Shown here: one piece after another, positions 508-23,836 of the stretch
How positions within the stretch are numbered: position 1 is the stretch's first letter
Layout of the letters: every line of letters starts with the position of its first letter
Origin: a virus
Strand: one strand, 5' to 3'
Length of the DNA stretch: 26,301 nucleotides
Virus record (IMG/VR): IMGVR_UViG_3300020578_000372
Span: 1 to 26,301 of that record
Translations under genes and position numbers: made by a program
The notes under the pieces: model-generated
Seen by the model: the letters and a program-made list of their open reading frames with translations, nothing else
The model's database searches: none
What the model was told of the DNA's origin: nothing

Positions 508-669
508 ATGGACATCAAGACTTTGGTTAGAGCGTTTGGGTCAGCCTCACAAATCGCACGCCGATTCGGCGTTTCGAGACAGGCTGTGGCGAAATGGATC
601 AAGTCGGGCACATTGCCCGCGCTGCGTGCGTATCAGGCACGCGAGATGCTGGAGAAGTTGGGCAAGTGA
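508..669 (+). CDS. Cro/YdaS-type helix-turn-helix regulator
   Basis: This 53-aa protein is essentially one DNA-binding domain. Residues 12-31 (SASQIARRFGVSRQAVAKWI) form a classic helix-turn-helix, followed by SGTLPALRAYQAREML as in Cro/YdaS-like phage regulators. It probably represses the divergent early promoters just upstream. The ATG at 508 coincides with the predicted transcript start and has no Shine-Dalgarno sequence, so it may be read from a leaderless mRNA. Its stop overlaps the GTG start of the methyltransferase gene (GTGA). Whether it acts as Cro or as the main repressor cannot be told; no second repressor gene lies in the window. Confidence 0.82.
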   Translation: MDIKTLVRAFGSASQIARRFGVSRQAVAKWIKSGTLPALRAYQAREMLEKLGK

Positions 670-8561: not shown

Positions 8562-9020
8562 TTACGCAACCTCTTTATAAAACATCCGCTCCATCGGCTT
8601 AAAGCCTTGGCGGGCATATAAGTTTGCCATGCTTAGCGACCGTTCATCTTCGAGCGCTACCATAAACAAGGCGGTCGCACCTTGTTCTTTCGCCCATGAC
8701 TCTATCGCATCGTACATTTGTTTGCCTACGCCGTTACCACGAACTTCCGGGGTCAAGTACCACCAGAGTTCCTGCACCACTCGGTGCGACGGGCTAAAGT
8801 ACATGGGGTAGTCGCACGCCCCCGTAATTCCGACTACTTGGCCATCTTTCTCTGCTACCCAAATCCCCATGTTCGGATTGCTGACGGCTGCTAAATAAAA
8901 GTTGGTAAAACCTTCGTAGTCGAAAGGCAGCGCGGAATGAACTGGGCTTGCGCTGTGGAACGCCGCAGCCAACGGCAAGTACCTATCAAGGTCTTCAGCG
9001 GTAGCGCGTCGAACGGTCAC
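8562..9020 (-). CDS. GNAT-family N-acetyltransferase
   Basis: This 152-aa protein has the GNAT fold signature: N-terminal VRRATAEDLDRYLPL, strands around WVAEKDGQVVGITGA (residues 54-68), motif A VRGNGVGKQMYDAIESWA (93-110, acetyl-CoA pyrophosphate-binding R/G-x-x-G-x-G) and the C-terminal LYARQGFKPMERMFYK. It would transfer an acetyl group from acetyl-CoA to an amine; the substrate is unknown. It starts with GTG overlapping the upstream stop (GTGA), so it is an integral part of the late operon between a virion-type gene and the ejection genes. Similar enzymes occur in other phage late regions. Confidence 0.87.
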   Translation of the reverse strand: MTVRRATAEDLDRYLPLAAAFHSASPVHSALPFDYEGFTNFYLAAVSNPNMGIWVAEKDGQVVGITGACDYPMYFSPSHRVVQELWWYLTPEVRGNGVGKQMYDAIESWAKEQGATALFMVALEDERSLSMANLYARQGFKPMERMFYKEVA

Positions 9021-9359: not shown

Positions 9360-10013
9360 TCAACTGAATACGAATCTGACGCGCCCGCTGGAGCCGTCGC
9401 TACCGGCGCTACCGCCGACTTCAGGGTCGCCGCCGTTACCGCCCGCGCCGCCCGTCAACGAGTTTACTCCCGCAATCGCCGTTGCGCCTGACTGGTCGTA
9501 GACCGCCCCACCGTTACCGTTGGTGTTGGTTGTGTTACCGCCCGTAGCCGTACCGCCCGCGCCCTGCTGACCGCCGTTGACGCCAAGGCCGCCGTAGCCG
9601 CCCCCGCCGCCTGTACTAATCATTTCGTCGATAGTAAAGGTTCCGGCAGAGGCCGACGAAATGCCGCCAGAATACCCTGTAGGGTTGCCCAAAACGCCTC
9701 CGGCGCCTTTGACGCCGACGCCATAGGCGATTGTCTTGCCGACATCGCCACCGCCGACTGCCACAATAGTTTTGGCATAGGCGCCCGATCCACCGCCACC
9801 TCCCGGCGCGTCTTGCGGCTCAAACTCAGGAAAGCCTGCGTAGGTCACGGTGCCAAAGCCACCGCCGCCTCCCCCGCCCCATACTTCGATGGTCAGGGAG
9901 GTAAAGCCTGACGGGATGCTGATAGTCCCTGCGCCTTCGGAAAAGTCAAAGACGCCCGCCCCAGCCCCGCCGGTCGTGCCTGCAATCGCGGCTGCAAGCG
10001 TAGCGCCGCCCAT
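9360..10013 (-). CDS. Gly-rich tail adhesin (single module)
   Basis: This 217-aa protein has one Gly_rich-type module. The strand SGFTSLTIEVWGGGGGG (about residues 35-51) leads into poly-Gly loops containing GGGGGSGAYAKTIV, ISTGGGGGYGG and a closing GSDGSSGRVRFVF. Proteins of this type form Gly-rich adhesin tips on phage tail fibres. The ATG overlaps the stop of the preceding fibre gene (TGATG). The same gene pair order, fibre then Gly-rich protein, recurs at 18494-22142, where the Gly-rich member has three modules. Host-receptor binding is inferred from family behaviour. Confidence 0.75.
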   Translation of the reverse strand: MGGATLAAAIAGTTGGAGAGVFDFSEGAGTISIPSGFTSLTIEVWGGGGGGGFGTVTYAGFPEFEPQDAPGGGGGSGAYAKTIVAVGGGDVGKTIAYGVGVKGAGGVLGNPTGYSGGISSASAGTFTIDEMISTGGGGGYGGLGVNGGQQGAGGTATGGNTTNTNGNGGAVYDQSGATAIAGVNSLTGGAGGNGGDPEVGGSAGSDGSSGRVRFVFS

Positions 10014-10822
10014 CAGGTCAACCCCGCTCCGCTAATCAGCCACGAAGTCGTGTTGATCTTAACGCAGGTGGCAAGGCCATTCCGCGCCAAGGTGCGGGTG
10101 CCGGTCGTCGTGCTGTTGGCAAGCGTCAGCGTATCGGTCGTGATCGCAATCGAGAGGCCAACGGTGTTGAGGTTTACAAAAATGATGACGGTGCCAATCG
10201 GGAACGCGACCGTGCCGTTCGCTGGAATTGTGGCCGTAATTGCCGTCGCCGTGCCATCGCCCATGACGACCGACTTACCGCGATCTGCGAGGACGAGCGT
10301 GTAGTTGCCTGCCTGCGCGTTGCGCGGCGCCTCTCGATAGCCGACTGGATAGTTGGCGCTAGTTGCAGCGTTGTCGGGAATCAGCGGCGTGCCCGTAAAC
10401 GTCGGCGAGGCAATCGGCGCGTAGGTCGCCGCAGCCGTTGCCGTTGAGAGCGCATCGGTGATGCCGTAGCCCGCGACGGTCGTAGGCTTGCCGGTCAGAC
10501 TTGCCCACGGCACTGCGCCCGTTGAGAAGTCGTTGATGCCTGGCACATTGTCGTAAGCGCCGATCTGTACGTTTGACGAATCGGTCAGCACGAAACGGTA
10601 AACGCCTGCCTGCTCTAGCCACATATCTTCAGGCAGTCGCCCGCCTGAGTCTAAAATAATGGGGTTCGGATTGGCGGTACTGCCCGTTGCCGAGGTGTAC
10701 GTCGCCTTCGGGCTAGTCGTCCCCGCGCTATAGGTATAAATCCGACCGGCTGAAAGCACTTCGCCGTCGTCGGTAAAAAATTGTGCGCCTGCACCCGCAA
10801 ACGCTGAAAGATACACGGTCAT
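10013..10822 (-). CDS. Tail fibre protein with VGYR-type C-terminal domain
   Basis: This 269-aa protein starts TVYLSAFAGAGAQFFTDDG, an N-terminal domain seen in podovirus tail proteins (GRIYTYSAGTTSPKATYTSATG follows). A linker with SLTGKPTTVAGYGITDAL and a beta-rich C-terminal domain starting VGYREAP (about residue 160) complete it. The C-terminal domain is paralogous to that of the 402-aa fibre at 20934-22142. Start at 10822 is chosen because it overlaps the upstream stop (ATGA) and begins the recognisable domain; the frame is open 34 codons further upstream, with unrelated Arg/Cys-rich sequence. Confidence 0.8.
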   Translation of the reverse strand: MTVYLSAFAGAGAQFFTDDGEVLSAGRIYTYSAGTTSPKATYTSATGSTANPNPIILDSGGRLPEDMWLEQAGVYRFVLTDSSNVQIGAYDNVPGINDFSTGAVPWASLTGKPTTVAGYGITDALSTATAAATYAPIASPTFTGTPLIPDNAATSANYPVGYREAPRNAQAGNYTLVLADRGKSVVMGDGTATAITATIPANGTVAFPIGTVIIFVNLNTVGLSIAITTDTLTLANSTTTGTRTLARNGLATCVKINTTSWLISGAGLT

Positions 10823-11535
10823 ATATTCACCTGATTTACGGTAAGAAGGGCAGACGGAATCGCAGGCACTGGCGCAGCGGCAGCGTAAGCCTCTAACTGC
10901 GCGCTCGTAGCATCGGTAGACCACACTAACTCAAAATAGTCACCGCCGCCCATTTCAACAAAAATGTTCGCGGCATACACGGTTTCGTTGTTGTTGCCTT
11001 GCAGATGAACGTGACGGCCCGAGTCTGCAATGTTGGTGCCGTTCTTGCGGCCCCAGAAATACATTTGCGCCAAACCGCCAGACGTTTTGTCGAGCTGAAC
11101 GGAAAACGCGAAGTTGTAGACCGCAGGCGTGCTGACGTAAATACGCGAAGTCGGCGAGCCACGGTAGACGCCGACGCCTACCTGAGTCGTGTTGAAGGTA
11201 ATCGGATACGCCGTATTGATGACCGCTGCCGTTTGGTCGGTCGTGTCGTAAAACATCCCGTAGTTGGTTTTAGACAGGTTCGCCAGCACCGTCTCAAGGT
11301 AAGGCGGTTCTTTCTGCAAATCCTCAATCTCGCGTTGCAACACTGCTGTGACATCATCGGTGTCGGGCGACAAAGCTCGCCCCACCTCAAGATCGGCGAT
11401 ACTAGTTGCGGTCGTGCCACTACCTGTCAGCACAAATTGGTTGTTCAAAAACCGAAACCACTCACGCGAAATCAGGCCCGTCCGCTCATCAATAAACGGC
11501 ACGCGAGGGGCGGGAATGTTGGTGATGTTAGCCAT
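10819..11535 (-). CDS. Tail protein with probable C1q/TNF-like jelly-roll C-terminus
   Basis: This 238-aa protein begins ITNIPAPRVPFIDERTGLISREWFRFLNN, a conserved N-terminal anchor seen in proteins following gp10 in many environmental P22-like phages. A short helix (about residues 60-85) precedes a beta-rich domain from about 90 with YGMFYDTTDQTAAVINTAYP, VYNFAFSVQLDKTSGG and FELVWSTDATSAQLEAYA, resembling C1q/TNF-like trimeric jelly rolls. It likely forms a trimeric tail fibre or knob. TAATG couples it to gp10. In P22 the equivalent slot holds gp26, which this does not resemble. Confidence 0.68.
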   Translation of the reverse strand: MANITNIPAPRVPFIDERTGLISREWFRFLNNQFVLTGSGTTATSIADLEVGRALSPDTDDVTAVLQREIEDLQKEPPYLETVLANLSKTNYGMFYDTTDQTAAVINTAYPITFNTTQVGVGVYRGSPTSRIYVSTPAVYNFAFSVQLDKTSGGLAQMYFWGRKNGTNIADSGRHVHLQGNNNETVYAANIFVEMGGGDYFELVWSTDATSAQLEAYAAAAPVPAIPSALLTVNQVNI

Positions 11536-13241
11536 TAGTACGCGGTCTCCGCGATTTGCAGTTCCGCGCCGTTGATGGCGACTTTGACGGGATCGGTGCC
11601 GCTGATCTCGTACACGCGGTCGCGCAATTTGGTGGTAGTGCCAAGGCGACGGAAGATAGCGCGAGTGCCGTAACGACCGATGCGCCCCATCGAGGTCTGC
11701 CGAGGCTCTGACCAGGTATGCCCTGCGTCATCTGACCAGCGCATCATCAACTGCGGGTTCACGCCGACTACCGTTTCGCGGTCAATAACAAGCGTTAGCC
11801 CTTCATCTTCGGTCACACCCAAGATGTGCGCGAGGTCTTCGGTGGCAATGTCTTCGTCGTCTTGCGTGGCAAGGTTTGCCGCAAGCTCAACGCCACCCGT
11901 CTCCGTGTTAATCGGAATAGACGTTTCGGTTGCAATTTCAATCTCAGGGTCAAACTGATCGTAACCGTTCAGCCCGACGCCCGTTTCCATGTCAATCTGC
12001 AACGAGTGGTGCGTCGTTCGCTTAAGATTGTTAGCGCCTGTCGGCAGCGCACGCCACGACCGCAGCCATTTCTGCACCGCGCCGTTGTCGCTAAATACGT
12101 CAAGGCTAAAGGCGTATAGGTTGCCGTTTTCAAAATCACCGATAATGGGTTCGCCATCGAATCGAGCGTGGCAGTTACCACGGTGACGCTTGAAGTCGCC
12201 TTGTTTGAACGCAGCGCGTTCGTGCCATGAACCGGTCGCGGCGTCGTACACCCACGTTGTATCGGCGTTCGTAAAGTTCAACACATAGAACGTATGCCCG
12301 TCCTGCTGGTAGGTATAACCCACCGCGTCAGCCAGATCGTCGTATTGTTGAATCGCAAACTCTACCGCGTGCGTAGAGACGCGAACGCCTTGGTAGCCTT
12401 GCGCTCGGTACACGATGCCTTGGCCGCGAGCGTCAGCGCCTAACCAAAAGACGCTGTTATCCATCTTGGCGACGGAGTATGGCGCGATACACCCGATTTC
12501 GTTGTAAGCGCCTTGGATGCGCGAAAGCGGGAAATCAGCCTCGCCACTGTTGTACCAGACTTCAACGCTATTCGTGCCAAAGAGCCACGCTTCGCGGTGG
12601 TCGATGATGAGCGACACCAAGCCGTCAGGCGAGCCTTCAGCCGAAGCAAAATCCAGCGGGTCTACAGAAAGCCCATCTAAAAGTGCTGTAACCCATACCC
12701 GTTGGCTATTGGGTTCGTTAAACACGAAGTAGCCATCAAGGTAGCCGACCGTCACCGCGCCGGGGAAATCTTCGTCAGTAATCTGCGCGAACACCAACGT
12801 GTCTACGTTGTAGATATATCCGTCAGGGTTCGCGGCGATAAAGATTTGCGTGCCGTTGTCAGCCATTGATACAGGGCCAATGCCGCTGACATATCCGACA
12901 TACGCACTGCCCGTCTCAAGGACAATCTTGCTGCTGTCTTCTAGCAGAATAAAACTGCCGTCTTCCAGTTCAAGGTAGCCAGTTGTTTCGCCCAAAAACG
13001 ATGCGTCTAGTCGATAGAATCCGTTACCAGACACTACATACAAAAATTGACCTAACGTCCACAACCCTCGAATCGGGCCGTCACCAACCGTTGCGCGAAG
13101 CGTATAGCCGGGGCAACGCTGCAAGTACGCGGCATCCTTACCTCCTTCAGCAATGATTTCTGGGTAAAGATTGACCATCCGATTGTCGGCAGCGTTAATG
13201 CTACGAATAACGTAGCTGCTACCCAGAATCGGGGACTTCAT
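11535..13241 (-). CDS. gp10-like packaged-DNA stabilisation (tail hub) protein
   Basis: This 568-aa protein matches the P22 gp10 family (about 470 aa in P22). It shows the N-terminal NLYPEIIAEGGKDAAYLQRCPGY pattern (residues 24-46), then repeated beta strands with the spacing of a beta-propeller, and a C-terminal region with MRWSDDAGHTWSEPRQTSMGRIGRYGTR. gp10 forms the hub that closes the head-tail channel and holds packaged DNA. It overlaps gp4-like by one base (TGATG). An octapeptide repeat (LEDGSFIL/LEDSSKIV/LETGSAYV, residues 92-115) is inserted near the N-terminus and is probably not part of the core fold. Confidence 0.9.
   Translation of the reverse strand: MKSPILGSSYVIRSINAADNRMVNLYPEIIAEGGKDAAYLQRCPGYTLRATVGDGPIRGLWTLGQFLYVVSGNGFYRLDASFLGETTGYLELEDGSFILLEDSSKIVLETGSAYVGYVSGIGPVSMADNGTQIFIAANPDGYIYNVDTLVFAQITDEDFPGAVTVGYLDGYFVFNEPNSQRVWVTALLDGLSVDPLDFASAEGSPDGLVSLIIDHREAWLFGTNSVEVWYNSGEADFPLSRIQGAYNEIGCIAPYSVAKMDNSVFWLGADARGQGIVYRAQGYQGVRVSTHAVEFAIQQYDDLADAVGYTYQQDGHTFYVLNFTNADTTWVYDAATGSWHERAAFKQGDFKRHRGNCHARFDGEPIIGDFENGNLYAFSLDVFSDNGAVQKWLRSWRALPTGANNLKRTTHHSLQIDMETGVGLNGYDQFDPEIEIATETSIPINTETGGVELAANLATQDDEDIATEDLAHILGVTEDEGLTLVIDRETVVGVNPQLMMRWSDDAGHTWSEPRQTSMGRIGRYGTRAIFRRLGTTTKLRDRVYEISGTDPVKVAINGAELQIAETAY
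12906..12974 (-). repeat. Octapeptide repeat segment in gp10-like gene, shared with the 58-aa gene
   Basis: Residues 90-112 of the gp10-like protein contain tandem octads of the form L-E-[DT]-[GS]-S-x-x-x. Positions 12923-12947 are nearly identical (23 of 25 bases by hand alignment) to positions 23853-23877 in the 58-aa gene, where the same octads end that protein. The two copies lie about 11 kb apart in the same operon. Confidence 0.75.
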
Positions 13242-13954
13242 CAGAAGTTGCCGGTGTAGATGTTAAAGCGCGGACGATTGACCATCAGTGCGGCAGGCAT
13301 TGCCATCACATCGCCTGGGAAGTTGATGCGCTTCAGATCGCGCTTACTGTACATCGCAATACGCCGCACTTGATTAGACGGCTCAATGCCGTACTCCGGC
13401 GCCAACTCACAGGCCAAGTTGTAGCGGAACGCCCGCAGATAGCCCGGCGGGAACGCCAACACGGTGTCTAGCGCGGCAGGCTGATTAAGCGGCTGCACCG
13501 ACACAAAGTGGAACTCCAGCACTCGGGTCGGCACCGGATAAATGTAAATCTCAATATCGGGATAGGTCGCGTTGTACCACAGCACCTGCGGGTAGGTAGA
13601 CGTTACCGTCTTGACCGCAATGTTGTTGTACTGCTCTTGGTTAATCATCTTGATGCCATACGACACGTTGGTCGAGGCATCGCGGAAATAGGTGGCGTCA
13701 TCCAATTCAACGGGACGTTGGCCGACGAAATCGCCGGTAGGCCCGAGTGTGCGAATGCGCGTAGAGGGCGGCCAGTTGAATACTTGGTCAATAGTGGAGA
13801 AGACCGACAGTCGCTCGGTACTCCACGAATCAATCATCTGATTGAGCGCTGTCAAGGCATCCTGCGCCATCGCTGCCGAGGGCGCTTCGGCTTCCGCTAG
13901 GACACCGATCAAACGCAGCGCACCGTTGATCTGGTCGAGAGCGGTGGTAGCCAT
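13241..13954 (-). CDS. gp4-like head-completion (tail accessory) protein
   Basis: This 237-aa protein belongs to the P22 gp4-like packaged-DNA stabilisation/tail accessory family. It has an N-terminal helical bundle (LDQINGALRLIGVLAEAE, then AQDALTALNQMIDSWS, residues 6-46), the strand YTWPP-like FNWPPSTRIRTLGPTGDF, and the C-terminal block FPPGYLRAFRYNLACELAPEYG (about 168-189). gp4 docks under the portal and connects it to gp10. An excellent AAGGAG lies eight bases before the ATG, merging with the upstream stop. It is longer than P22 gp4 (166 aa) but typical for environmental relatives. Confidence 0.88.
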   Translation of the reverse strand: MATTALDQINGALRLIGVLAEAEAPSAAMAQDALTALNQMIDSWSTERLSVFSTIDQVFNWPPSTRIRTLGPTGDFVGQRPVELDDATYFRDASTNVSYGIKMINQEQYNNIAVKTVTSTYPQVLWYNATYPDIEIYIYPVPTRVLEFHFVSVQPLNQPAALDTVLAFPPGYLRAFRYNLACELAPEYGIEPSNQVRRIAMYSKRDLKRINFPGDVMAMPAALMVNRPRFNIYTGNF

Positions 13955-13957
13955 TAT

Positions 13958-14161
13958 TTACTCCTTACGGCGACGACGCGCCCGCAATGCGTTGCCAGAA
14001 GTCTCCGACGCCAACATTTCTGCTGACGCCGGAGATTCTGAATCATCCGGGTTAGAAGGGTCAAACTCTTCCCACCCGTGCTGTATATCTTCCTGAACCT
14101 CTAGCCAAGAAATAGCGACTTTCTCGCCATGCCTCGGATGTCTCAGGTAGATATTCGCCAT
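13958..14161 (-). CDS. Small charged conserved virion-region protein
   Basis: This 67-aa protein has an N-terminal IYLRHPRHGEKVAISWLEVQED, a central acidic/Pro/Ser stretch and an Arg-rich tail (ALRARRRRKE). It lies just upstream of gp4-like, where small hypothetical proteins are often found in this phage group. There is no good Shine-Dalgarno; the start lies in an AT-rich near-palindrome (14161-14176), so translation may depend on the upstream gene. Function unknown; a capsid-associated or DNA-binding role fits the charge but is speculative. Confidence 0.62.
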   Translation of the reverse strand: MANIYLRHPRHGEKVAISWLEVQEDIQHGWEEFDPSNPDDSESPASAEMLASETSGNALRARRRRKE

Positions 14162-14166
14162 ATTAA

Positions 14167-14565
14167 TTAACTAATACGATAGCAAGTCCACGAACCGTCG
14201 CCCGTCTTGCGAGCGCGGAAGTGACCCGATGTACCAGCAGAGACAGCGCCCGCACCCACAAGGGTCCAGCCTGTGCCCACCGCTACCGTAATCGCATCCG
14301 CACCTGCGTCGATGTTAACGACGAAGAAATCAAACGCCGCATCCACTTTTGAGGCAGACGAAACGTAGGCTTCAAGGTCAGAAACAGTCGGCAGGGTGAG
14401 ATTGCCCGCAGTTCCATTGAACGTGAAAAGGCCATTTGACAACTGAGCCGCCGTGGCGGTAGTAGCCGCCGTTAGCGCAGTCGGCGCACCCTGTGCAAAA
14501 AGCAGAGCCTCGCCAACATTACCGTCGTTAAATTGATAACCGCCAGAGCCATTAGGAAGAGCCAT
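14167..14565 (-). CDS. Small capsid-region virion-type protein (132 aa)
   Basis: This 132-aa protein starts ALPNGSGGYQFNDGNVGEAL and has a beta-rich body (LTLPTVSDLEAYV, AFDFFVVNIDAGADAITVAVGTGWTLVG) ending SGHFRARKTGDGSWTCYRI. Proteins of this pattern are common directly after coat genes in environmental podoviruses and may decorate the head, but the role is not established. AGAGGT lies about eight bases before the ATG. Confidence 0.7.
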   Translation of the reverse strand: MALPNGSGGYQFNDGNVGEALLFAQGAPTALTAATTATAAQLSNGLFTFNGTAGNLTLPTVSDLEAYVSSASKVDAAFDFFVVNIDAGADAITVAVGTGWTLVGAGAVSAGTSGHFRARKTGDGSWTCYRIS

Positions 14566-14578
14566 GTCTAATTACCTC

Positions 14579-14893
14579 TTAAATAATGCCATCGGTGATA
14601 GTCCGATCCGGGCGGCTTACGAGGATTTTGTAGACCTCGTTTGCCGTCGGAGTAATTGGACTAGCCGTGAAGTTTCCAAACGTGATTGCCAGCGTATCTG
14701 CTGCTGAGACACGGCAGCCAACAATACCGAGGCCCGCTTGAGCGCTCGGCTTGTTGACGGCAACGTGGTCTTCTGCCTGCAAGCCCGTGACCGTAAACGT
14801 CTGCTCGGCAGACGTATACGCGGACACGGCAGAAGGCGACAGCGTAACGCTGATAACCGACTGCTTGGGGAGATTGCCAATGACGTAACTCAT
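14579..14893 (-). CDS. Small beta-rich virion-type protein after coat (104 aa)
   Basis: This 104-aa protein is beta-rich (SVISVTLSPSAV, TFTVTGLQAEDHVAVNKP, DTLAITFGNFTASPITP, YKILVSRP), resembling small capsid decoration or Ig-like phage proteins. It starts four bases after the coat stop. No family is recognised with confidence; head decoration is the most economical guess from position and fold type. Confidence 0.65.
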   Translation of the reverse strand: MSYVIGNLPKQSVISVTLSPSAVSAYTSAEQTFTVTGLQAEDHVAVNKPSAQAGLGIVGCRVSAADTLAITFGNFTASPITPTANEVYKILVSRPDRTITDGII

Positions 14894-14897
14894 GGCA

Positions 14898-16100
14898 TTA
14901 ACCCCAGAGACGGACGGCCATCTGCGGACGGATTACGTTGTAACCGTACAGAACGTCAATACGGCACGGCATACGGTCGTTGTTGATGTCGTACTGACGA
15001 ACAACGCGCATGGAGATGCCGTTGTGAACCTGGCGCGAAGCCATGTCAACGCCCTGCGGCATGAGGAGGTCTGCCGTGGCGAAAGCAATCGCATCGCGGT
15101 GGTACACAAGGTTCTGCGGGTATTGCGTGGACGCACCACCAAGGAACGTCACCGTCGCACCAGACTGCGGGAACGAATCCACGGTAGCAAGGGCGTTCGA
15201 CGAGGTGTAGATCGCCGGAGAGACGTTCACCGTGTATGCGCCAGCCACAGCCGTTGCATCGGCGGTCGCCACGAACTGCTGAAGCGAGCCGGTGGACTCA
15301 CGGGTCTGCGGATTGACCGCAAACACGCTGCCAACGGTAAACACATCGCCCTTCTTGATCGTCTGCGTGCCAGTGCCGGTGATGGCAATGGACGAGGTGC
15401 CCTGAGTGGAGATGGTGGTGGTTACGGTGTGTGCGCCAGTGCGGGTGCCAGTCATGAACTGCTTGATCGACTGCGACATATTGAGTTCGTTGAACCCAAG
15501 GATGCCCTCGCCGAACATACCGTTCTTGAACTGCGCCGAGATGGTGCTGACCGGATTAAAGAGACCCTTCATGCCCTCGATGAGCGCGGCATTGGCAGCC
15601 GGGTTCACGGTGACATAACGCGGCTGCATCACAGCGGCGGCTTCGTTGAGCTTCTGCTGTGCGGCGAGCAGAACCTGAGTGCTGCTCGGCGTGGTGCCGG
15701 GGGTGCCGACCGACTGGAAGATGCTGTTGAAGCTATTGGCAACGTCCGCGTCAATCGAGGCCGCAAGCTGCGAGATACGCGGCTTGAGAACACGCTCGGC
15801 GAAGTCGTCCAACTGCATCGTCATTTCGGCAGTCGTGAAGTTCACGCCGATGTGCTTCTGCGAAGCAACGGTCAGCGTGGTGAACTGCTCGTTGTCGTCC
15901 TGCACTTGCAGGGCGGCACCGTCAGTCACAAGGGCGCGATCTGGCAGACGGATACGCAGGGTGGTGCCGATCTTGGCGCCTTCCACAGCGTAGCTGTTGT
16001 CGTACTGGCGGTTGACATTACGGGTGATGACAAGGTTGTTCTCAAGGATTTCGAGAGCCTTCCTCGTAATCATGTCGATAGTAAGAAGTGTATTAGCCAC
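14898..16100 (-). CDS. Major capsid (coat) protein, P22 gp5-like
   Basis: This 400-aa protein matches the P22 coat family (430 aa in P22), an HK97-fold capsid protein. Diagnostic parts are the N-terminal LENNLVITRNVNRQYDNSYA (residues 18-37), VEGAKIGTTLRIRLP (38-52), QKHIGVNFTTAEMTMQLDDF (80-99) and AASIDADVANSF (113-124); the C-terminus has YNVIRPQMAVRLWG. It forms the icosahedral shell on the scaffold. The start is GTG at 16100 with AGGAG seven bases upstream. It follows the scaffold gene as in P22. Confidence 0.95.
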   Translation of the reverse strand: MANTLLTIDMITRKALEILENNLVITRNVNRQYDNSYAVEGAKIGTTLRIRLPDRALVTDGAALQVQDDNEQFTTLTVASQKHIGVNFTTAEMTMQLDDFAERVLKPRISQLAASIDADVANSFNSIFQSVGTPGTTPSSTQVLLAAQQKLNEAAAVMQPRYVTVNPAANAALIEGMKGLFNPVSTISAQFKNGMFGEGILGFNELNMSQSIKQFMTGTRTGAHTVTTTISTQGTSSIAITGTGTQTIKKGDVFTVGSVFAVNPQTRESTGSLQQFVATADATAVAGAYTVNVSPAIYTSSNALATVDSFPQSGATVTFLGGASTQYPQNLVYHRDAIAFATADLLMPQGVDMASRQVHNGISMRVVRQYDINNDRMPCRIDVLYGYNVIRPQMAVRLWG

Positions 16101-16121
16101 GGAATTACTCCTGAAAAATGG

Positions 16122-16904
16122 TTAACGTCTCTGCATCGCTTCCCACTGCTTGATCTGGCGACGACGTTCGGCCTCAATCCATTCCGACGTACTCATGGCC
16201 GTTACCGACCGTGGGTCCGTCGTCTCGTAGGTGCCGTTCGCCGTGCCTCTCGCCGTGACCGGCTTCAGCGGGGGCGGTGCGCTGGTTGTCTTTTTGACCG
16301 GCGGATTGTCAGCCAATTTGGCCTCGATCCTGCCAATCTCTTTAGCCTGAAGGTAGGGCGACAGGCGGGAAATACGGTCAGCCTCTCGGGGGTTAGAGCC
16401 TAAGTAGTACGCTACGTCTGGCCCAATATCCGATGCCTGAATCGTCTGCGCCATCACGGTCGTAATTGGCAGGCTCTGGTTGTACGCGACTTGCTCGAAG
16501 TCATCGTACCGATCCCGCGCCGCCTCTTCGCGTTCGTGATAGGCGCTCAAGAATTCGTGCTGCTGGCGCTCGGCTTCCCGCTTGGCAAGGAGTTCTTCGG
16601 CCTTACGAACCGCTAGGGCTTCCGCATAGGCGTCAGGGTCTACTTCCTTATCCGGCAGGGCTTCCGATGCCGACCTTTCAGTCGGTGCCTTCAGCGCTTG
16701 CTCTCGTTCCCACTTGCGACGTTCCCGTGCAAGCCTCTTGCCGACCATCGCGTCCAACTCTTCTTGAGTGAACGTCTTGGCAGGCTTTTCCTCCGGCGGT
16801 GCCGCCTCTTGGGCAGCGACTTCGGGTTGCGGGGTCGCCGTGACCTCCGCTTCCGGCGCGGGTACTTCCGCTACTTGTTCAACCAACTGATTTTCGTCAG
16901 CCAT
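16122..16904 (-). CDS. Capsid scaffolding protein, P22 gp8-like
   Basis: This 260-aa protein has the composition and layout of podovirus scaffolds: an acidic, Pro/Ala-rich flexible N-terminus (to about residue 45), long charged helices (EELDAMVGKRLARERRKWERE about 48-68; AVRKAEELLAKREAERQQHE about 97-116), a middle region and a basic C-terminal helix SEWIEAERRRQIKQWEAMQR that would bind coat protein. It lies immediately before coat in the transcript. AAGGA lies just before the ATG, inside a predicted hairpin. It would leave the procapsid before or during DNA packaging. Confidence 0.88.
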   Translation of the reverse strand: MADENQLVEQVAEVPAPEAEVTATPQPEVAAQEAAPPEEKPAKTFTQEELDAMVGKRLARERRKWEREQALKAPTERSASEALPDKEVDPDAYAEALAVRKAEELLAKREAERQQHEFLSAYHEREEAARDRYDDFEQVAYNQSLPITTVMAQTIQASDIGPDVAYYLGSNPREADRISRLSPYLQAKEIGRIEAKLADNPPVKKTTSAPPPLKPVTARGTANGTYETTDPRSVTAMSTSEWIEAERRRQIKQWEAMQRR

Positions 16905-16908
16905 TTGT

Positions 16909-16940
16909 GTTCCTTGTGGAACCCTGGTCGTCCGGACCAG
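16909..16940 (-). promoter_or_regulatory. Two hairpins in the scaffold leader, one overlapping the ribosome-binding site
   Basis: On the minus-strand RNA, CTGGTC...GACCAG (16940-16935 with 16929-16924) forms a 6-bp stem, followed directly by GTTCC-ACAA-GGAAC (16922-16909). The second hairpin's loop and 3' arm contain AAGGA, the Shine-Dalgarno of the scaffold gene four bases on. Folding would mask it. P22 scaffold synthesis is known to be autoregulated after transcription; whether that applies here is inference. Confidence 0.5.
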
Positions 16941-16949
16941 TACGGTAAA

Positions 16950-16978
16950 ACTTTACTGTGGCGCGAAAGAAACATCAA
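16950..16978 (-). promoter_or_regulatory. Possible internal promoter before scaffold and coat
   Basis: Minus-strand TTGATG (16978-16973), a 17-bp spacer and TAAAGT (16955-16950) each match sigma-70 consensus at four of six bases. It lies in the 70-bp gap before scaffold, the largest gene-free gap in the late operon. A transcript from here would start near 16943 and carry both leader hairpins. Weak evidence on its own. Confidence 0.35.
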
Positions 16979-17286
16979 CTCCAAGGCGTGCCCATTGGCA
17001 CTGCGCTTGGCTTTTTGCCGTCTTTTTCAAGGATGGCAAGTTTGCGCTCAAGTTCGATAGCTTCGCGGGCAGCGCGGCCTTCAACGGCAGATTTATCTAC
17101 CGCTGCCCACACCCAACCCAAAACCTTGTCTTCGGTCAGATCAGCGAACGGGGTAAAACTGCCGCTTGGCGGGGCCAACTCCACAACGTCTTTCAGGACG
17201 CCAACTTGGTAGTTCACGCGCACGACAACGTCGCTATGTCCGTAGGCGTTGGGATACACCTGAAGATTGGTAATCTTCCAGTTCAT
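16975..17286 (-). CDS. DUF7936-type phage protein
   Basis: This 103-aa protein starts MNWKITNLQVYPNAYGHSDVV and continues with a beta sandwich-like half, then FTPFADLTEDKVLGWVWAAV and a helical tail ending PSAVPMGTPWS. This order (NWKI..L.VYP, F.P...LTE..VLGWV) fits the DUF7936 family of small phage proteins from aquatic phages. Function is unknown. The ATG at 17286 overlaps the upstream stop (ATGA); 15 further codons upstream would be open but lack a start signal. Confidence 0.76.
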   Translation of the reverse strand: MNWKITNLQVYPNAYGHSDVVVRVNYQVGVLKDVVELAPPSGSFTPFADLTEDKVLGWVWAAVDKSAVEGRAAREAIELERKLAILEKDGKKPSAVPMGTPWS

Positions 17287-17651
17287 GCTGCGCGCTCCAC
17301 TTCTTTCCACGACTGTGCGGCCTCGTCCCAACTATACATCTTCCCATCGCTCGGCATTGGCACTGGAGCGACCCACTGCGCGGTCGCATTATTAAGCACC
17401 CAGGACGGGTACGGTTGCGGCGGTACAAAGGCATCAATCGCCGCATCGTAGCGGTAACCGATACCCGCATAATTTTTGCGAATATTGGCGTTGTAGCTCG
17501 TCTGCTTCCAGTTCCCACCGAGTAGGTTCTGGCAGAACGCGACGCCGATGCTCTCAGTCTCGTTGCCGTTAGCGTCTGCCGTATCCTTGTTGGCGACAAC
17601 GATGACGCGCTGCACCACGCTGTTTGAATCAATCTCTGCGAAATGAGCCAT
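17283..17651 (-). CDS. Conserved aquatic-phage protein (MAHFAEID type)
   Basis: This 122-aa protein begins AHFAEIDSNSVVQRVIVVAN and contains ESIGVAFCQNLLGGNWKQTSYN, RKNYAGIGYRYD, AFVPPQPYPSWVLN and SWDEAAQSWKEVE. This pattern recurs in cyanophages and other marine or freshwater phages, usually near tail genes, with no assigned function. The ATG at 17651 lies one base after the oxygenase's stop; the frame is open 15 codons further upstream but inside that gene. A virion or tail-assembly association is inferred from neighbours. Confidence 0.8.
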   Translation of the reverse strand: MAHFAEIDSNSVVQRVIVVANKDTADANGNETESIGVAFCQNLLGGNWKQTSYNANIRKNYAGIGYRYDAAIDAFVPPQPYPSWVLNNATAQWVAPVPMPSDGKMYSWDEAAQSWKEVERAA

Positions 17652-17652
17652 A

Positions 17653-18252
17653 TCAGTTCTCCAAATGCAAAGCGGTGAGACTTTCTTCCTCACCAACGTA
17701 ACCGACCGGGAAAGTGTTGAACGAAAGCGATACCCGCTCCTGCTGCACGGATTCCACCATGTGCGTCAAGTGCGAGGGGAAAATCATCAGATCGCCTGCG
17801 CCGACCTCGAACCACCACGACTCGCTGTTGTGCAGGTTCCAATTATCAGTCGGCAGGCTGATCTGTTTGTAGCCGTCGCGGTAAAAATAAATCTTGTCGC
17901 GCTCGCGTGCGGCCTTCATGTAGAGAACGCCGCTGATGAAACTGTTGGGATGCGCGTGCTTGTGGTGCCATTCACCGGGCTTGCAGTAGTTGAGCCACGA
18001 CTGCGTGATGCGTAGGCCGACCTCGTTCTTCGGCGCGTAGATACTTCGTAGATACTCGCCCAGACTAGCCTCTACGAATGCCTTGAGGTTTGCCATCGTG
18101 TCATGGCGCAGCACATAGCGGTCGTTGCTCGTCGTGTTGCCTTGGTTCTTGTGCGTCTCTTGCGAGTCCACAAAGGCGCTCTCCTCGGCGGTGTAGTCCC
18201 GTCCGAGTTCAAACTTAGCCACCGCCGTCGGAAAGATGCTGTAGAGATTCAC
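17653..18252 (-). CDS. 2OG-Fe(II) oxygenase (PF13759-like)
   Basis: This 199-aa protein fits the 2OG-Fe(II) oxygenase family common in aquatic phages. The iron ligands lie in EWHHKHAHPNSFISGVLYM (His97/His99/His101 region), the distal His in FPSHLTHMV (His164), and Arg173 in RVSLSFNTF would bind 2-oxoglutarate. The reaction couples 2-oxoglutarate decarboxylation to substrate hydroxylation; the substrate is unknown. The start is GTG at 18252, overlapping the upstream stop (GTGA). Placement between adhesin genes and scaffold raises the possibility that a virion or cell-surface component is modified; that is inference. Confidence 0.86.
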   Translation of the reverse strand: MNLYSIFPTAVAKFELGRDYTAEESAFVDSQETHKNQGNTTSNDRYVLRHDTMANLKAFVEASLGEYLRSIYAPKNEVGLRITQSWLNYCKPGEWHHKHAHPNSFISGVLYMKAARERDKIYFYRDGYKQISLPTDNWNLHNSESWWFEVGAGDLMIFPSHLTHMVESVQQERVSLSFNTFPVGYVGEEESLTALHLEN

Positions 18253-18497
18253 GCGACCGCCTTTTCTATTTGGGCAACGTACTCGTCAAACGCTTTCTGC
18301 TGCTCTGGGAGCAGGATCGTCGGCACCGCGTCTTCAAGTTCCTTGATCTTTTCAATCGTGAACATGATCTCGTCCCACGACGGTTTTGGCCTTGGGTCTT
18401 CCCAGCGCGTGATTTCGCGGTTGCTGATTTCCCACTTGGCACCGGGACGCAAGAGATGCATCGCGGTATCTATGCCCATTAACTGATAGGTTTTCAT
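18249..18497 (-). CDS. Small protein, possible tail-fibre assembly factor
   Basis: This 82-aa protein (YQLMGIDTAMHLLRPGAKWEISN, then ITRWEDPRPKPSWDEI and a helical C-terminus) resembles small proteins that follow tail-fibre genes in aquatic phages, with the 'LRPGA-W...P.P..E' pattern seen in XkdW-like/fibre-assembly proteins. It overlaps the giant Gly-rich gene (ATGA), as a dedicated chaperone would. Resemblance is modest, so the functional call is tentative. Confidence 0.6.
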   Translation of the reverse strand: MKTYQLMGIDTAMHLLRPGAKWEISNREITRWEDPRPKPSWDEIMFTIEKIKELEDAVPTILLPEQQKAFDEYVAQIEKAVA

Positions 18498-20929
18498 GTG
18501 AAGTTGACCTTGAGAATTACGATGCCGGAGCCGCCTGCTGCGCCTGTTATATCACTGGGATAATTGCTACCATTTGAGCCACCGCCACCGCCACCTGTAT
18601 TAGCAGTTCCTGCAACTTGCACATTGCCGGGAGCGGGATTAAATGCGCCTTGACCTCCACCGCCTGTGCCGCCCGTAGGAATATTAGTTCCTCCTGTACC
18701 GCCGCCACCGCCGCCTGCATAAGTTACAGATGACCCAGAAATAGACGATGCTGTACCGTTACCGCCTGTGCCGTTAAAGGGCGATACATTTCCCGGCCCT
18801 CCTGCTGCGCTTGCGCCTCCTCCTCCTCCAGAGCGATAAGGTATATTGCCATCAAGTTGCCCACTACCACCGTTTGATCCCTGTGCAGGAGTTACAGAAG
18901 GTGTATTACCGTTTCCTGCACCAAACCCCGCAGGAACCGCTGCTGATCCGCCGCCACCAGAACCACCATTTCCTCCTGCACTATTAGAGCCGCCTCTTCC
19001 TCCTCCCGTGCTGGTAATGGTGCTAAATATGGAATCGCTGCCTTGCGTATTTGCGCTGCCGCCACCTCCGACAGTAATCGCGTAATCGGTTCCTGCCGTA
19101 ACGGATAAACCCGTGCCAGTTCTAAATCCACCTGCGCCACCGCCACCGCCGTTAGAAGTGCCAAAAACATATGTACCACCCCCACCACCACCGGCCACCA
19201 CCAAATAGTCAACGCTCACCGCGCCAGCAGGTGCGACCCACTTCTGCGTGGACTTGAAGGTGAAGATCGTGGCAGAGCCGATGTTGTACTTGAGGATGAC
19301 GATGCCGGAGCCGCCTGCACCACCAGCAAAAGAAGTTGGGTTATATCCGCCGCCACCAGCGCCACCGCCTGTGTTTACTGTGCCACTTGAGCCAACTGCT
19401 GCGTTTTGCCCATTACCGCCACCACCTGAACCGCCTGTTCCAGCCGTACCTACTGGAGTTCCACCACCGAGACCAGCACAACCACCACCACCGCCACCTG
19501 CGTAAGTGACGGACGCACCCGAAATAGAAGATGCGGTTCCATCACCTCCCGACCCTGCGGTATTTGTTCCGGCATTACCATTACCACCTGTTGCACTTGC
19601 ACCGCCACCACCACCCGCAACGGCTGATGATCCCCCTGGTTGATTTGGAGCATTACCCCCGCTACTTCCTTGTGAAGGGCTTACAGACGGCGTGTTTCCA
19701 GCGCCACCCGTGCCTCCGGTTCCTCCTGAACCAGTACCGCCGCCACCGCCAGAACCACCTGCACCACCATTGGTGTAATAAGCCCCGCCACCGCCGCCGC
19801 CAGCGGAAGTAATTGTGCTAAATACAGAATTAGACCCAGAAGTACCTACTGCTTGAGTTGTTCCGCCAGCACCACCAGCGCCGATTGTGACGGTGTAATC
19901 GGTTCCGGCGGTTACAGACAGCCCAGTACCTGTTCGGAAACCTCCGGCTCCGCCGCCACCTCCAGCAAGAAAACCACCCCCGCCACCACCGGCCACCACA
20001 AGGTACTCAACCTCGGTGACACCCGCAGGGGCAGTCCATGTGCCGGAGGCGAGGAAGGTTGCGACAACAGACTGGACGGGTACTTGGTATTTCAGAATGA
20101 CGATGCCGGAGCCGCCAGAGCCGTTGAGCGACGGAATGTTATATCCACCGCCACCGCCGCCTGTGTTGGCCGCTCCAGCAGTTCCCGGATTTGGATTGCT
20201 GTAGCCACCGCTACCGCCGCCGCCCGTGCCGCCGGGAGTGAGCGCAGAGCCGCCATTGCTCATGCCGCCGCCACCACCGGCATACGTTACCGATCCGCCA
20301 GAGATTGACGAGGCTGTCCCGTTACCGCCCGCGCCGCCTAACCCAGCAGACGGGCCAGCAGCATTAGCGCCCACAGCCGATGCACCGCCACCACCGCCGC
20401 CTTTGGTGTAGGTTGCTTGGTCTGATATTGACTTGCCGCCGTTATTACCTTGAGACGGGCTGACTGACGGCGTATTGCCAGCGCCGCCGGGAGCGCCAGC
20501 AGTTACTGCACCGCCGCCACCGCCGCCGGAGCCACCGGCCCTGCCATCATGCACGTTTGGATTGCCCGACCCGACAGGTTGCTGCCCGCCTGCGCCGCCG
20601 CCGCCTGCGCTAGTGATGGTGCTAAAAACTGAATTTGAGCCGTCCGTACCGCGTGAGGTGCCGTCGTCGTGCTTTCCTGCCGCGCCGCCGCCGCCAACCG
20701 TTACCGTGTAATTAGTGCCGGCAGTTACGGATAAGCCTGTGCCTGTTCGGAATCCGCCTGCTCCACCGCCACCAGAACATCCCCCACCACCCCCCGCGAC
20801 GACAAGGTATTCCACCTGCGTCACGCCGGTAGGACAAACCCAACTACCGGATGCGGTGAAGATTTTGTATTCGGTGTATGCCGCTGCGCTGACGACTTGG
20901 CCCAGCAGCAGACTCATAATGCCGCTCAT
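18494..20929 (-). CDS. Giant Gly-rich tail adhesin with three tandem modules
   Basis: This 811-aa protein consists of three homologous modules of about 265 residues (roughly 18-283, 284-551 and 552-811). Each starts with a W-containing strand and VEYLVVAGGGGG or VDYLVVAGGGGG, has GGAGGFRTGTGLSVTAGT and YTVTVGGGG-like strands, then SVFSTIT, long poly-Gly loops with GNTPSVSPSQG, GTASSISG and SVTYAGGGGG, and closes with GGSGIVILK. Gly-rich modules of this kind form polyglycine sandwiches at phage adhesin tips. It likely binds a host receptor. It is preceded by a fibre gene, as is the single-module gene at 9360. Start at 20929 or 20917 cannot be separated. Confidence 0.83.
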   Translation of the reverse strand: MSGIMSLLLGQVVSAAAYTEYKIFTASGSWVCPTGVTQVEYLVVAGGGGGCSGGGGAGGFRTGTGLSVTAGTNYTVTVGGGGAAGKHDDGTSRGTDGSNSVFSTITSAGGGGAGGQQPVGSGNPNVHDGRAGGSGGGGGGAVTAGAPGGAGNTPSVSPSQGNNGGKSISDQATYTKGGGGGGASAVGANAAGPSAGLGGAGGNGTASSISGGSVTYAGGGGGMSNGGSALTPGGTGGGGSGGYSNPNPGTAGAANTGGGGGGYNIPSLNGSGGSGIVILKYQVPVQSVVATFLASGTWTAPAGVTEVEYLVVAGGGGGGFLAGGGGGAGGFRTGTGLSVTAGTDYTVTIGAGGAGGTTQAVGTSGSNSVFSTITSAGGGGGGAYYTNGGAGGSGGGGGTGSGGTGGTGGAGNTPSVSPSQGSSGGNAPNQPGGSSAVAGGGGGASATGGNGNAGTNTAGSGGDGTASSISGASVTYAGGGGGGCAGLGGGTPVGTAGTGGSGGGGNGQNAAVGSSGTVNTGGGAGGGGYNPTSFAGGAGGSGIVILKYNIGSATIFTFKSTQKWVAPAGAVSVDYLVVAGGGGGGTYVFGTSNGGGGGAGGFRTGTGLSVTAGTDYAITVGGGGSANTQGSDSIFSTITSTGGGRGGSNSAGGNGGSGGGGSAAVPAGFGAGNGNTPSVTPAQGSNGGSGQLDGNIPYRSGGGGGASAAGGPGNVSPFNGTGGNGTASSISGSSVTYAGGGGGGTGGTNIPTGGTGGGGQGAFNPAPGNVQVAGTANTGGGGGGSNGSNYPSDITGAAGGSGIVILKVNFT
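18519..20880 (-). repeat. Three direct repeats of about 800 bp inside the Gly-rich adhesin gene
   Basis: The three modules are also visible as DNA repeats. For instance ACGATGCCGGAGCCGCC occurs at 18519, 19299 and 20100, marking the end of each module at intervals of 780 and 801 bp. Other shared words mark the start of each module. Spacer loops differ in length and sequence, so the units have diverged but could still recombine. Confidence 0.82.
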
Positions 20930-20933
20930 GGCT

Positions 20934-22142
20934 TTAGCTCACGTTGCCGGAGATCACGCAGACCGTACCGCTGATGAACAAAATGGTCGCCACACCTCGC
21001 GTTGCGAGTGACACCGTAGCCTTGTCTGTGTCTGTGCCTGCAATGTACGCGGTTGTGATCGTGCAGGTAATCGTGATAGCGCCCGAGGTGTTGTTGAACA
21101 CCGAGACAATATCCCCCGTCGCAAACGTGCTGTTCGGAATCGTGATTGAACCACCAGAACCTACGCCGATGAACTTGCCGACATCGCCTGTAACAAGCGA
21201 GTAGTTCGTCGTTTTGTCTGAGCCGGACTGCGGGACGTTGCGATAACCGACGTTGTTGGTGCCGTCAGCCGTGCAGTTGGAGAGGTTGCCCGAGGTCGGC
21301 GTGCCCAAAATAGGCGTGGTGAGCGTGGGCGAAGTAGCCAGTACGTTATTACCCGTGCCTGTATTGGTGACGCTGACGATGTTTTTGCTACCGTCGAGCG
21401 CGAGCGCCGTAGAGGCCGTTAAACCATTGAGTGTGGTAGTGCTGCTCGTTGTCAGCGTGGTAAAGGCACCCGTATTCGCAGTCGTCGCGCCAACGGTGCC
21501 ATTGATGTTGATCGAGGCTGTGCCGGTGAGGTTTGTGACCGTACCGCCAGATGGCGTGCCGAGTGCGCCACCATCTTGTAAAAGCCGAACCCATGAACCG
21601 CCGTGGGCAAAATACATTGCACCGTCGGCGTGCGAGTGCGCGACCGCGCCGTGATAAGTGGTAGCAGAAGGAAACGCCGCTTGGTTCGCAAAATAAAACG
21701 GAATGACCGATCCTGCTTCCGGCGCAACGATGGCACCTGCATCAGAAATTGTAACCGACGAATTTTGAATGAGCTTGCCGGTGGTGCTATCAAATCTTGT
21801 AATTGCATTGTCCGTGGAGGACGCCGGGCCAACGACATCGCCGCCCGATCCGGTCGCGGCAATCGTGATGCTGCCGGTGCCATTCGTAATGGAGATACCC
21901 GAGCCTGCGGTCAGCGTGGCTTTACTCAACGTGTTGCCGGTCGTGTTACCGATCAACAATTGGCCGTTCGTGTAAGTGGATTGGCCGGTACCGCCGTTGG
22001 CGACCGTAATCGGCGTGCCCAGGTAAGCCGCAATGTTGGCAACGGTCAACTTGTAGTTCGCGCCGCCTCGGGCAATAACGGTTTCATCCGCCGCTTGTGC
22101 CGGGGCGCCAGAACTTAACGCACTAATTTTTGTGTCGGCCAT
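20934..22142 (-). CDS. Tail fibre protein with VGYR-type C-terminal domain (402 aa)
   Basis: The N-terminus (ADTKISALSSGAPAQAADETVIARGG, residues 2-27) resembles that of the tailspike next door and is probably the virion-anchoring part. A Thr/Gly-rich shaft follows with VANGGTGQSTYTNGQLLIGN, then LTTPILGTPTSGNLSNC, repeats typical of phage fibres. The C-terminal domain starting VGYRNVP (about residue 300) is paralogous to that of the 269-aa fibre. It is expected to be a trimeric host-recognition fibre. GAGG lies six bases before the ATG. Confidence 0.82.
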   Translation of the reverse strand: MADTKISALSSGAPAQAADETVIARGGANYKLTVANIAAYLGTPITVANGGTGQSTYTNGQLLIGNTTGNTLSKATLTAGSGISITNGTGSITIAATGSGGDVVGPASSTDNAITRFDSTTGKLIQNSSVTISDAGAIVAPEAGSVIPFYFANQAAFPSATTYHGAVAHSHADGAMYFAHGGSWVRLLQDGGALGTPSGGTVTNLTGTASININGTVGATTANTGAFTTLTTSSTTTLNGLTASTALALDGSKNIVSVTNTGTGNNVLATSPTLTTPILGTPTSGNLSNCTADGTNNVGYRNVPQSGSDKTTNYSLVTGDVGKFIGVGSGGSITIPNSTFATGDIVSVFNNTSGAITITCTITTAYIAGTDTDKATVSLATRGVATILFISGTVCVISGNVS

Positions 22143-22159
22143 GATAAACCTCGATTAAA

Positions 22160-23836
22160 TCAAATCAGCGTTTGCGCGACTGTCAGCAGGCTAATGGAGT
22201 CCGTCACATCGTTCGCCGTCGCAGCAGCAGTCGTCTTGCTTGACAGGCCAACGTAGTTGTAGAAAAAGTCCGAGTCGGTAGCATAGTCAAACACTTCGTA
22301 CTCCAACACACAGCGGATGTTGACCACTTGAAAAGCACCGAAGTTTCCGCAAGTAATGCCGATACCTTGCGCAATGCCGGCGGTCTTTCCAGTTAAGAAG
22401 TACAGACCCGTAATCTGCCCGCTTGTCGGATTGTTAAACACTTGGTTCACGCACAACTTAGCGGCATACGGCGCGGTGGCGCTGTCAGCTACCAAATACT
22501 TAAAAGTGACATCCGCAACGTGCATCCCTGCGCCGCTGTTGCCATAGACGTACACTTTTAGGCGAGCGCCAAAACTCTTAAAATTAAGAAAAGTAAATGT
22601 GCTGTTAAATCGGAAGATCACCTTGCTGTCGGGGTCTGACGCAACAAACGTACCAGTGTTGTTGTTCGCTTCCGGCATCGTGCCGTCGATGAAAAACTGC
22701 TCAAAGTACGTTGCGCCAGTTCCCACGACGTTGCGGTCGTTGGTCGTTTTGCTCGTCAGGTAATACTTGGCAAAGTTGCTGACGTTTTCCGGCTGCATAT
22801 ATCGCAGGTTAGCCTGCGAGGTCCACGAAGCGTTTTCGTTTGCAACACCGCAGAAAAGGTTTTGCGAAATGTCGGTAGCACCTTCAGAAAATTCGTACCC
22901 CTCGGATTCGGTTGTGTAACCAATAAACGCATTAAACTTCGCGTATTGAGTTAGCTTAAAACAAATTGACAAAGGCGAGAGCGGAGGCGAAATGTTGTAA
23001 CAAGTTATTCCACTAAATATGTTTTCAATGGCAGGCCATATCGCGTTGCCTTTCAGTTCGTAATGAACGTGATTTGTTCGCAACACGCCATTTGTAAACA
23101 CATTGACATTGGCATGGCCGCCCAAAAACACCGCAATATCACAGTTTGTAATGTGATAGTTGCTAACGCGGTTACCCATTTGAACGCGAACAGCGGCTGG
23201 ATTATCGGTGCCGTCAAATTTGATGCCAAAGCATGAGGTCGCGCCCGTGGTATCGGTCGTGCGGTGCCCCATGAGGTAAATGTTGTCCATCGAGGCGTAG
23301 GTCACGGTTTCGCTCGGGTGCATCCCGATGATGCCACCCGTGGCACCGTTTATTTTCTGGTGGTCAAATTGCAGATGATGAATGCCAGAGCATTCCCGCA
23401 TAATTATGATTGACCCTGCAAGGCTCGCCGAATCCTTAAAGAGCAGCGTGCCGTCTTTGCCAGGGTGACTCGGGTAGTAATCGCCCGTGTTAGTTTGGCC
23501 GTGCAAAACGCCGCCTAGCGGCATCGTGATCGTTCCGTCGATACGGTATTTGCCTGCGGGCAAGTAAACAATGTTGTTCTGATTGAGCGCGGTCTGAATC
23601 GCGCTTGTTGCATCTGCAACACCGGTGTTGTCGGCGCCGTAGTCGAGGGCGCTTACAATATCACGCAGTTTGCTCTGAATCGTGCGAGTGACCGACGACG
23701 CGCCAGCTGAAGCAAACCCGAGTTCGTTCAGCGAAGCCTTTTTGGTTACGCCGCCTTGCACAACAGGCACAACGTCCGCTGGTGAGACCGGCGACGTTGC
23801 GGCGGGTAACTGCGAAATTTTAATGGTAGAGGCCAC
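22160..23836 (-). CDS. Tailspike with pectate-lyase-like beta-helix
   Basis: This 558-aa protein has an N-terminal anchor (STIKISQLPAATSPVSPADVVPVVQGG), then the Pectate_lyase_3-type start DYGADNTGVADATSAIQTAL (residues about 65-84) and VYLPAGKYRIDGTI, which open a right-handed beta-helix. The C-terminal third is a beta-rich domain. Tailspikes of this fold bind and often cleave surface polysaccharides such as O-antigen or capsule. Catalytic residues cannot be named. The start is GTG at 23836 with GGAG eight bases upstream, overlapping the stop of the 58-aa gene. Codon use looks more AT-rich than the head genes, as is common for exchanged adhesin genes. Confidence 0.85.
   Translation of the reverse strand: MASTIKISQLPAATSPVSPADVVPVVQGGVTKKASLNELGFASAGASSVTRTIQSKLRDIVSALDYGADNTGVADATSAIQTALNQNNIVYLPAGKYRIDGTITMPLGGVLHGQTNTGDYYPSHPGKDGTLLFKDSASLAGSIIIMRECSGIHHLQFDHQKINGATGGIIGMHPSETVTYASMDNIYLMGHRTTDTTGATSCFGIKFDGTDNPAAVRVQMGNRVSNYHITNCDIAVFLGGHANVNVFTNGVLRTNHVHYELKGNAIWPAIENIFSGITCYNISPPLSPLSICFKLTQYAKFNAFIGYTTESEGYEFSEGATDISQNLFCGVANENASWTSQANLRYMQPENVSNFAKYYLTSKTTNDRNVVGTGATYFEQFFIDGTMPEANNNTGTFVASDPDSKVIFRFNSTFTFLNFKSFGARLKVYVYGNSGAGMHVADVTFKYLVADSATAPYAAKLCVNQVFNNPTSGQITGLYFLTGKTAGIAQGIGITCGNFGAFQVVNIRCVLEYEVFDYATDSDFFYNYVGLSSKTTAAATANDVTDSISLLTVAQTLI

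Follow-up and report, generated by a model that had tools for sequence, protein, structure and literature searches.

Based on sequence comparison and structure prediction, we propose that two gene pairs of an uncultured virus of bacteria are probably two independent copies of a receptor-binding module of two genes, in which the end of a fibre acts as a socket and an exchangeable adhesin is mounted on it by a short plug. The window analysed is IMG/VR record IMGVR_UViG_3300020578_000372, positions 1-26,301 (26.3 kb). Each pair consists of a fibre gene (F1 or F2) and a glycine-rich (Gly-rich) gene (G1 or G2); we call the C-terminal domain of the fibre the socket and the N-terminus of the adhesin the leader or plug, and give the relative loci compared, from IMG/VR and from isolates, as L with a number. 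The genes, all on the minus strand, are F1 (20934-22142, 402 residues), G1 (18494-20929, 811 residues), F2 (10013-10822, 269 residues) and G2 (9360-10013, 217 residues). An earlier note on this DNA had described a fibre plus Gly-rich pair present twice around the capsid genes, and the open reading frames (ORFs) bear this out, with F1-G1 preceding and F2-G2 following the coat gene along transcription and the capsid block between them. The apparent duplication comes down to a very widespread two-gene module that this virus uses twice.

The same note had ascribed to the fibres a common C-terminal domain and differing N-termini, and we found both. The last ~105-110 residues align with 32% identity (BLASTP E 7e-7), and profiles of the two sockets, each built with six relatives, matched in hhalign with a probability of 97.4 and an E-value of 1.1e-11. 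The socket comprises residues 298-402 of F1 (20937-21251) and residues 160-269 of F2 (10016-10345), the latter having the XD1 fold in its model. Outside this domain F1 and F2 are unrelated by BLAST; F1 has an unrelated N-terminal shaft and matches phrog_31660 (tail fiber, 5e-19). In both pairs the Gly-rich gene comes directly after the fibre gene, with a gap of 4 nucleotides between F1 and G1 and an overlap of 1 nucleotide between the F2 stop codon and the G2 ATG. The F2 ATG, at 10822, itself forms an ATGA overlap with the preceding gene X.

For the Gly-rich members, the similar composition and the count of three modules in G1 versus one in G2 stood, but their homology could not be demonstrated: there was no BLAST match between G1 and G2, and hhalign gave a probability of 10.5%. 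The three tandem Gly_rich_2 modules of G1 are 56-60% identical among themselves and score above the curated cut-off of PF21722 in three stretches (218.5 bits versus 24.3; E 1.5e-64). G2 had no Pfam match at E 0.1 and hence none to PF21722. Judged by length, the relatives of G1 contain one, two or three modules. The particle would carry, as had been suggested, two adhesin sets, in the form of two putative receptor-binding cassettes of like design with a common fibre domain.

Searching with an iterated socket profile, we collected 278 domains in 327 loci from IMG/VR and isolates; relatives of the F1 socket number at least 560 in IMG/VR. The socket ended the ORF within 9 residues in 276 of the 278, and none was fused to an adhesin. 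In 214 non-redundant cases, the start of the next gene lay 92 times at -1 and 57 times at -4, and the downstream products fell into more than 40 BLAST clusters of body, including Gly-rich, Laminin_G_3 (LamG/ConA), Lcl-like, propeller-like and other types. Different bodies were found behind sockets that are 93% identical in DNA, and in the clade of F1 type LamG and Gly-rich bodies replace one another, with 6 changes for 6 LamG bodies among 15 rows. Selection by other genes gave a concordant picture: in loci chosen by their capsid genes, every adhesin-type leader gene stood behind a socket fibre, and among 109 scored Gly_rich_2-type ORFs chosen by adhesin sequence, 35 had both leader and socket. 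The profile iteration also pulled in XD1-like domains of non-fibre proteins, which we set apart as controls; the gene following XD1-like domains of capsid-adjacent and X-family proteins had no leader.

The pair was also present in isolates, namely Synechococcus phage S-CBS2 (gp052, gp053), Synechococcus phage S-B28 of the Autographiviridae (gp11, gp10) and Limnohabitans phage YIMV22061, where its products are annotated as collagen-like, PE_PGRS or hypothetical. The P22-type coat family scored above its cut-off in 13 of 50 socket-bearing records, many of which are fragments. As T7-like and siphophage isolates carry the pair and this coat was found in only these 13 records, the module is not tied to the phage type of the window. 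Three other searches yielded little: genome contigs with the F1 socket were limited to two metagenome-assembled loci, a scan of viral contigs with the G2 body gave 10 loci only, and a broad alignment held no pattern conserved enough for searching.

All main groups of downstream proteins begin with a short hydrophobic leader. In the window these are MSGIMSLLLGQVVSA in G1 (20885-20929) and MGGATLAAAIAGTTG in G2 (9969-10013). Behind F1-type sockets the leader reads MSGIMSMLLG or MSGSQQLLLG, behind F2-type sockets MGGATLAAAIAG, MAGILAVVAGLS or MSGALQAVFQNQRSF, and behind cyanophage-type sockets MxIQQMLLG or MxIHQALF. Lcl-like bodies occur with both socket types: in L035, where the socket is F1-type, the start is MSGIHLALLG, and in L234, where it is F2-type, MSGALQAVFQNQRSF. 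We compared 188 leader entries, a few control XD1-like domains of non-fibre proteins among them, and classed sockets as the same when at least 65% identical and as different when less than 45% identical. For leader residues 1-14 the similarity was 0.35 with the same socket and a different body, 0.17 with a different socket and the same body, and 0.13 with neither in common. The corresponding values for residues 41-54 were 0.00, 0.26 and 0.08. The excess identity per position extended over residues 2-15, with a hydrophobic peak at 7-9, and fell to background from residue 17. On these sequence comparisons, leader residues 2-15 follow the socket type, whichever body comes after. To this pairing we found no reference in a literature search outside of which most subscription papers lay.

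A leader that overlaps the stop codon of the fibre and is hydrophobic could also be kept for a reason other than docking, for translational coupling, as an mRNA element or recombination hotspot, or as a membrane or signal segment. Codons were compared between genes whose bodies are unrelated and whose sockets share at least 90% identity. In leader codons 2-10 the proportion of non-synonymous differences (pN) was 0.18 and that of synonymous differences (pS) 0.68; in codons 26-35 these values were 0.75 and 0.74. For sockets with at least 80% identity to each other, pN/pS was 0.13. Purifying selection acts on the leader, whose synonymous sites are near saturation. Since these sites are nearly saturated while the amino acids are kept, recent DNA linkage is no explanation and it is the peptide that is constrained. 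The leader also goes with the type of fibre domain, not with the type of body, and 165 of the 188 leaders have no charged residue among the first ten, unlike the n-region of a classical signal peptide. Together this makes a non-docking role very unlikely.

Structure prediction with AlphaFold2 (AF2) gave a model of F2 with a mean predicted local distance difference test score (pLDDT) of 81.9, and of ~90 in the N- and C-terminal domains. The N-terminal domain (residues 10-106; 10505-10795) is predicted to have the head-binding fold of the P22 tailspike, the VIA fold matches being P22 tailspike 1lkt (Z 9.9), Sf6 gp14N 7sg7 (9.4), Pam1 7eeq (11.6) and Pan3 9vyg (12.2), and is the candidate virion anchor. 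The modelled C-terminal domain has the XD1 fold of T4 gp9 and gp10, matching the Pa223 capsid spike 9ny6 (Z 12.4), CBA120 TSP4 XD1 7rej (10.1) and T4 gp9 1qex (8.9); these matches, with Z 8.9-12.4, cover 93-109 residues. By its sequence homology to the F2 domain, the F1 socket is expected to be XD1-like as well. In sequence searches of solved structures, neither the socket profiles nor G2 had a credible relative, and for G1 there were only chance-level or irrelevant matches.

The G2 model reached a pLDDT of 88.8 and a predicted template modelling score of 0.83, with a leader that is disordered in the isolated model (pLDDT <50 for residues 1-17). Its body is modelled with the Gly-rich fold of virion proteins of Pam3 and Bxb1 (fibre gp24 of Pam3, 7ypx, Z 18.6; Bxb1 9d93_Q, Z 17.6; 29% identity); that 9d93_Q is gp33 we took from how PMC13243192 describes it. 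A more distant resemblance is to the Gly-rich domain of ALK. S16 gp38 (6F45) was absent among the G2 fold matches listed, an absence that we did not use as evidence.

In the plug-and-socket module as we picture it, the N-terminus of the fibre would anchor to the virion, in F2 through its P22-tailspike-like domain, and the fibre would end in an XD1-type beta-sandwich, presumably trimeric, whose distal face would be free because nothing follows the C-terminal domain. The next gene, probably translationally coupled through a 1- or 4-nucleotide overlap or a short gap, would encode the adhesin. Its mostly uncharged hydrophobic leader of ~15 residues would become ordered on the distal face of the socket and cap the fibre tip, and the body behind it, here Gly-rich, would touch the host surface. 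Among phages the bodies are exchanged for unrelated lectin-like (sugar- or receptor-binding) folds, with leader and socket remaining matched. We infer the physical docking, the stoichiometry of trimer and cap, and the binding to the host.

The downstream protein might instead be a chaperone of the Tfa or T4 gp38 type, which assists fibre folding and stays outside the particle. Chaperones can be encoded with their fibres, as is gp25 with gp24 in Pam3 (PMC9608196), and there were weak matches to the PHROG tail-fibre-assembly family phrog_863. However, large and variable folds, lectin-like or Gly-rich, are freely swapped behind one leader, and G2 resembles virion proteins (the Pam3 fibre and the Bxb1 tail tip), not chaperones, so that we regard this role as unlikely.

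Several points weigh against a plug-and-socket joint. The XD1 domains of T4 gp9 and gp10 and of CBA120 TSP4 have been called a spacer, not a binding module, and were described as unable to bind trimeric partners, their termini lying on opposite faces that are both used (PMC8825819); the socket, being C-terminal, would instead keep its distal face free. The predicted structures cover monomers only, and both pairs of this virus are known from genes alone. A few socket genes precede non-adhesins (e.g. L238). Most of the Gly_rich_2-type ORFs selected by adhesin sequence (74 of 109) had no such socket upstream, so that Gly-rich adhesins can also be mounted otherwise. Some of these ORFs stand behind fibre ends of another kind, several of which come with a recurring leader of their own; the numbers are small and a lead only.

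The closest known parallel is gp37-gp38 of T2 and S16, in which the distal end of a trimeric fibre is capped by a separate, N-terminally attached gp38 (PMC12892980, PMC9608196), as the docking proposed here would have it. In S16, gp38 is attached to gp37 by its N-terminus, through three short helices that rest on a hydrophobic platform (PMC9608196). In T2 the N-terminus of gp38 sets the compatibility with gp37, and swapping the N-terminal 113 residues restores the fit to T2 gp37 (PMC12892980). The two systems also share a Gly-rich (polyglycine II) receptor-binding region and a gene order in which the adhesin comes immediately after the fibre. They differ in that the common N-terminal part is here only ~15 residues long and the fibre end of XD1 type, that the bodies include unrelated folds, and that the module occurs in podophages, T7-like phages and siphophages, and twice in the genome of the window.

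Other likenesses are confined to single parts. Pam3 gp24 and Bxb1 gp33 have the Gly-rich fold of the G2 body, but in Pam3 this domain lies within the fibre chain, whereas G2 is a separate protein with the body behind a disordered leader. T4 gp9 and gp10 and CBA120 TSP4, which are trimeric phage assembly proteins, share the fold of the F2 C-terminal domain; there XD1 is internal, whereas here it is a free C-terminus that nearly always stands before an adhesin gene. The P22 tailspike (gp9) and Sf6 gp14 share the head-binding fold of F2, and the window has a P22-type coat, portal and tail factors, but F2 lacks an enzymatic spike body and has a short shaft followed by the socket.

The earlier note had suggested duplication or capture of a cassette, and of these only separate capture stays compatible with the trees. 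A single fibre-adhesin cassette, duplicated in an ancestral phage of the group and then diverged, would account for the identical order and the shared C-terminal domain at both positions. Such a duplication would also fit the co-occurrence of one module of each type in the window, L014, L005 and the 38-kb records L103 and L154, the other P22-coat records holding one or none. However, the nearest kin of the F1 socket is that of L082 (89% identical), in which the next gene encodes a LamG protein, and the F2 socket, which has a 100% identical counterpart in L162, belongs to a clade of position-2 fibres. In a quick tree, F2-type sockets lay nested among those of T7-like phages of Limnohabitans and Synechococcus. 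In an approximately unbiased (AU) test on a tree of 82 domains, a group of F1-type and F2-type sockets excluding the cyanophage type was rejected (p 0.018), and with it the F1 and F2 domains as mutual closest relatives. In L077, moreover, an F2-type socket occupies position 1. Homology of G1 and G2 could not be detected, and the N-termini of the two fibres are unrelated. Because both fibre domains have independent closest relatives, an outcome that the earlier note had itself named as refuting its reading, duplication in this lineage is not supported and appears highly improbable to us.

On a wider scale, we think it somewhat likely that the XD1 fibre socket and the ~15-residue plug form a general coupling standard of aquatic tailed phages, through which complete adhesins of unrelated folds are exchanged across tail types at a single conserved joint. 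Tip adhesins of phages are usually found singly and labelled hypothetical. Should the joint prove real, a fibre ending in a socket followed by a gene starting with M-x-G-I/A-hydrophobic would be a signature that finds the receptor-binding protein regardless of its fold, usable in many environmental phage genomes. The joint would also explain tip swapping between unrelated phages, and the rule could be tested directly with small protein pairs that can be co-expressed.

Other fibre-end families with recurring leaders of their own (e.g. MPIHGYPGQIIS and MPVLSSLxxATA) were seen before Gly_rich_2 bodies in L342, L366, L348, L376, L332, L343, L364, L331, L345 and L382. These may be parallel standards; regular-expression recounts recovered few cases, and the families are leads only.

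Profile searches (Pfam, PHROG) identified P22-type coat, portal and tail genes in the window. On the minus strand lie the portal (24690-26249), the scaffold (16122-16904), the P22-type coat (14898-16100) and, between coat and X, the head-closure genes. Protein X (10819-11535, minus strand), encoded directly before F2, had no Pfam match, and no XD1-like domain was found in the window copy; its counterparts in L035, L040, L062, L063 and L075 end in an XD1-like domain. X is possibly a tail needle or knob. In L022, L028, L030, L036, L037 and L038, proteins of ~123 residues that are mostly XD1-like domain are encoded just 3' of the coat gene and may be capsid decorations, given the match to the Pa223 capsid spike.

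A pectate-lyase-like spike (22160-23836, minus strand) is a third receptor-binding candidate besides both fibre-adhesin pairs. It has an N-terminal KISxLP motif that by eye resembles the first 40 residues of F1, with no significant BLAST match. A 2OG-Fe(II) oxygenase (PF13759; 17653-18252, minus strand) lies amid the structural genes, and the equivalent place in MW202483 also has one. Additionally, the window encodes a GNAT acetyltransferase (8562-9020, minus strand) and a C5 cytosine DNA methylase (594-1787, plus strand).

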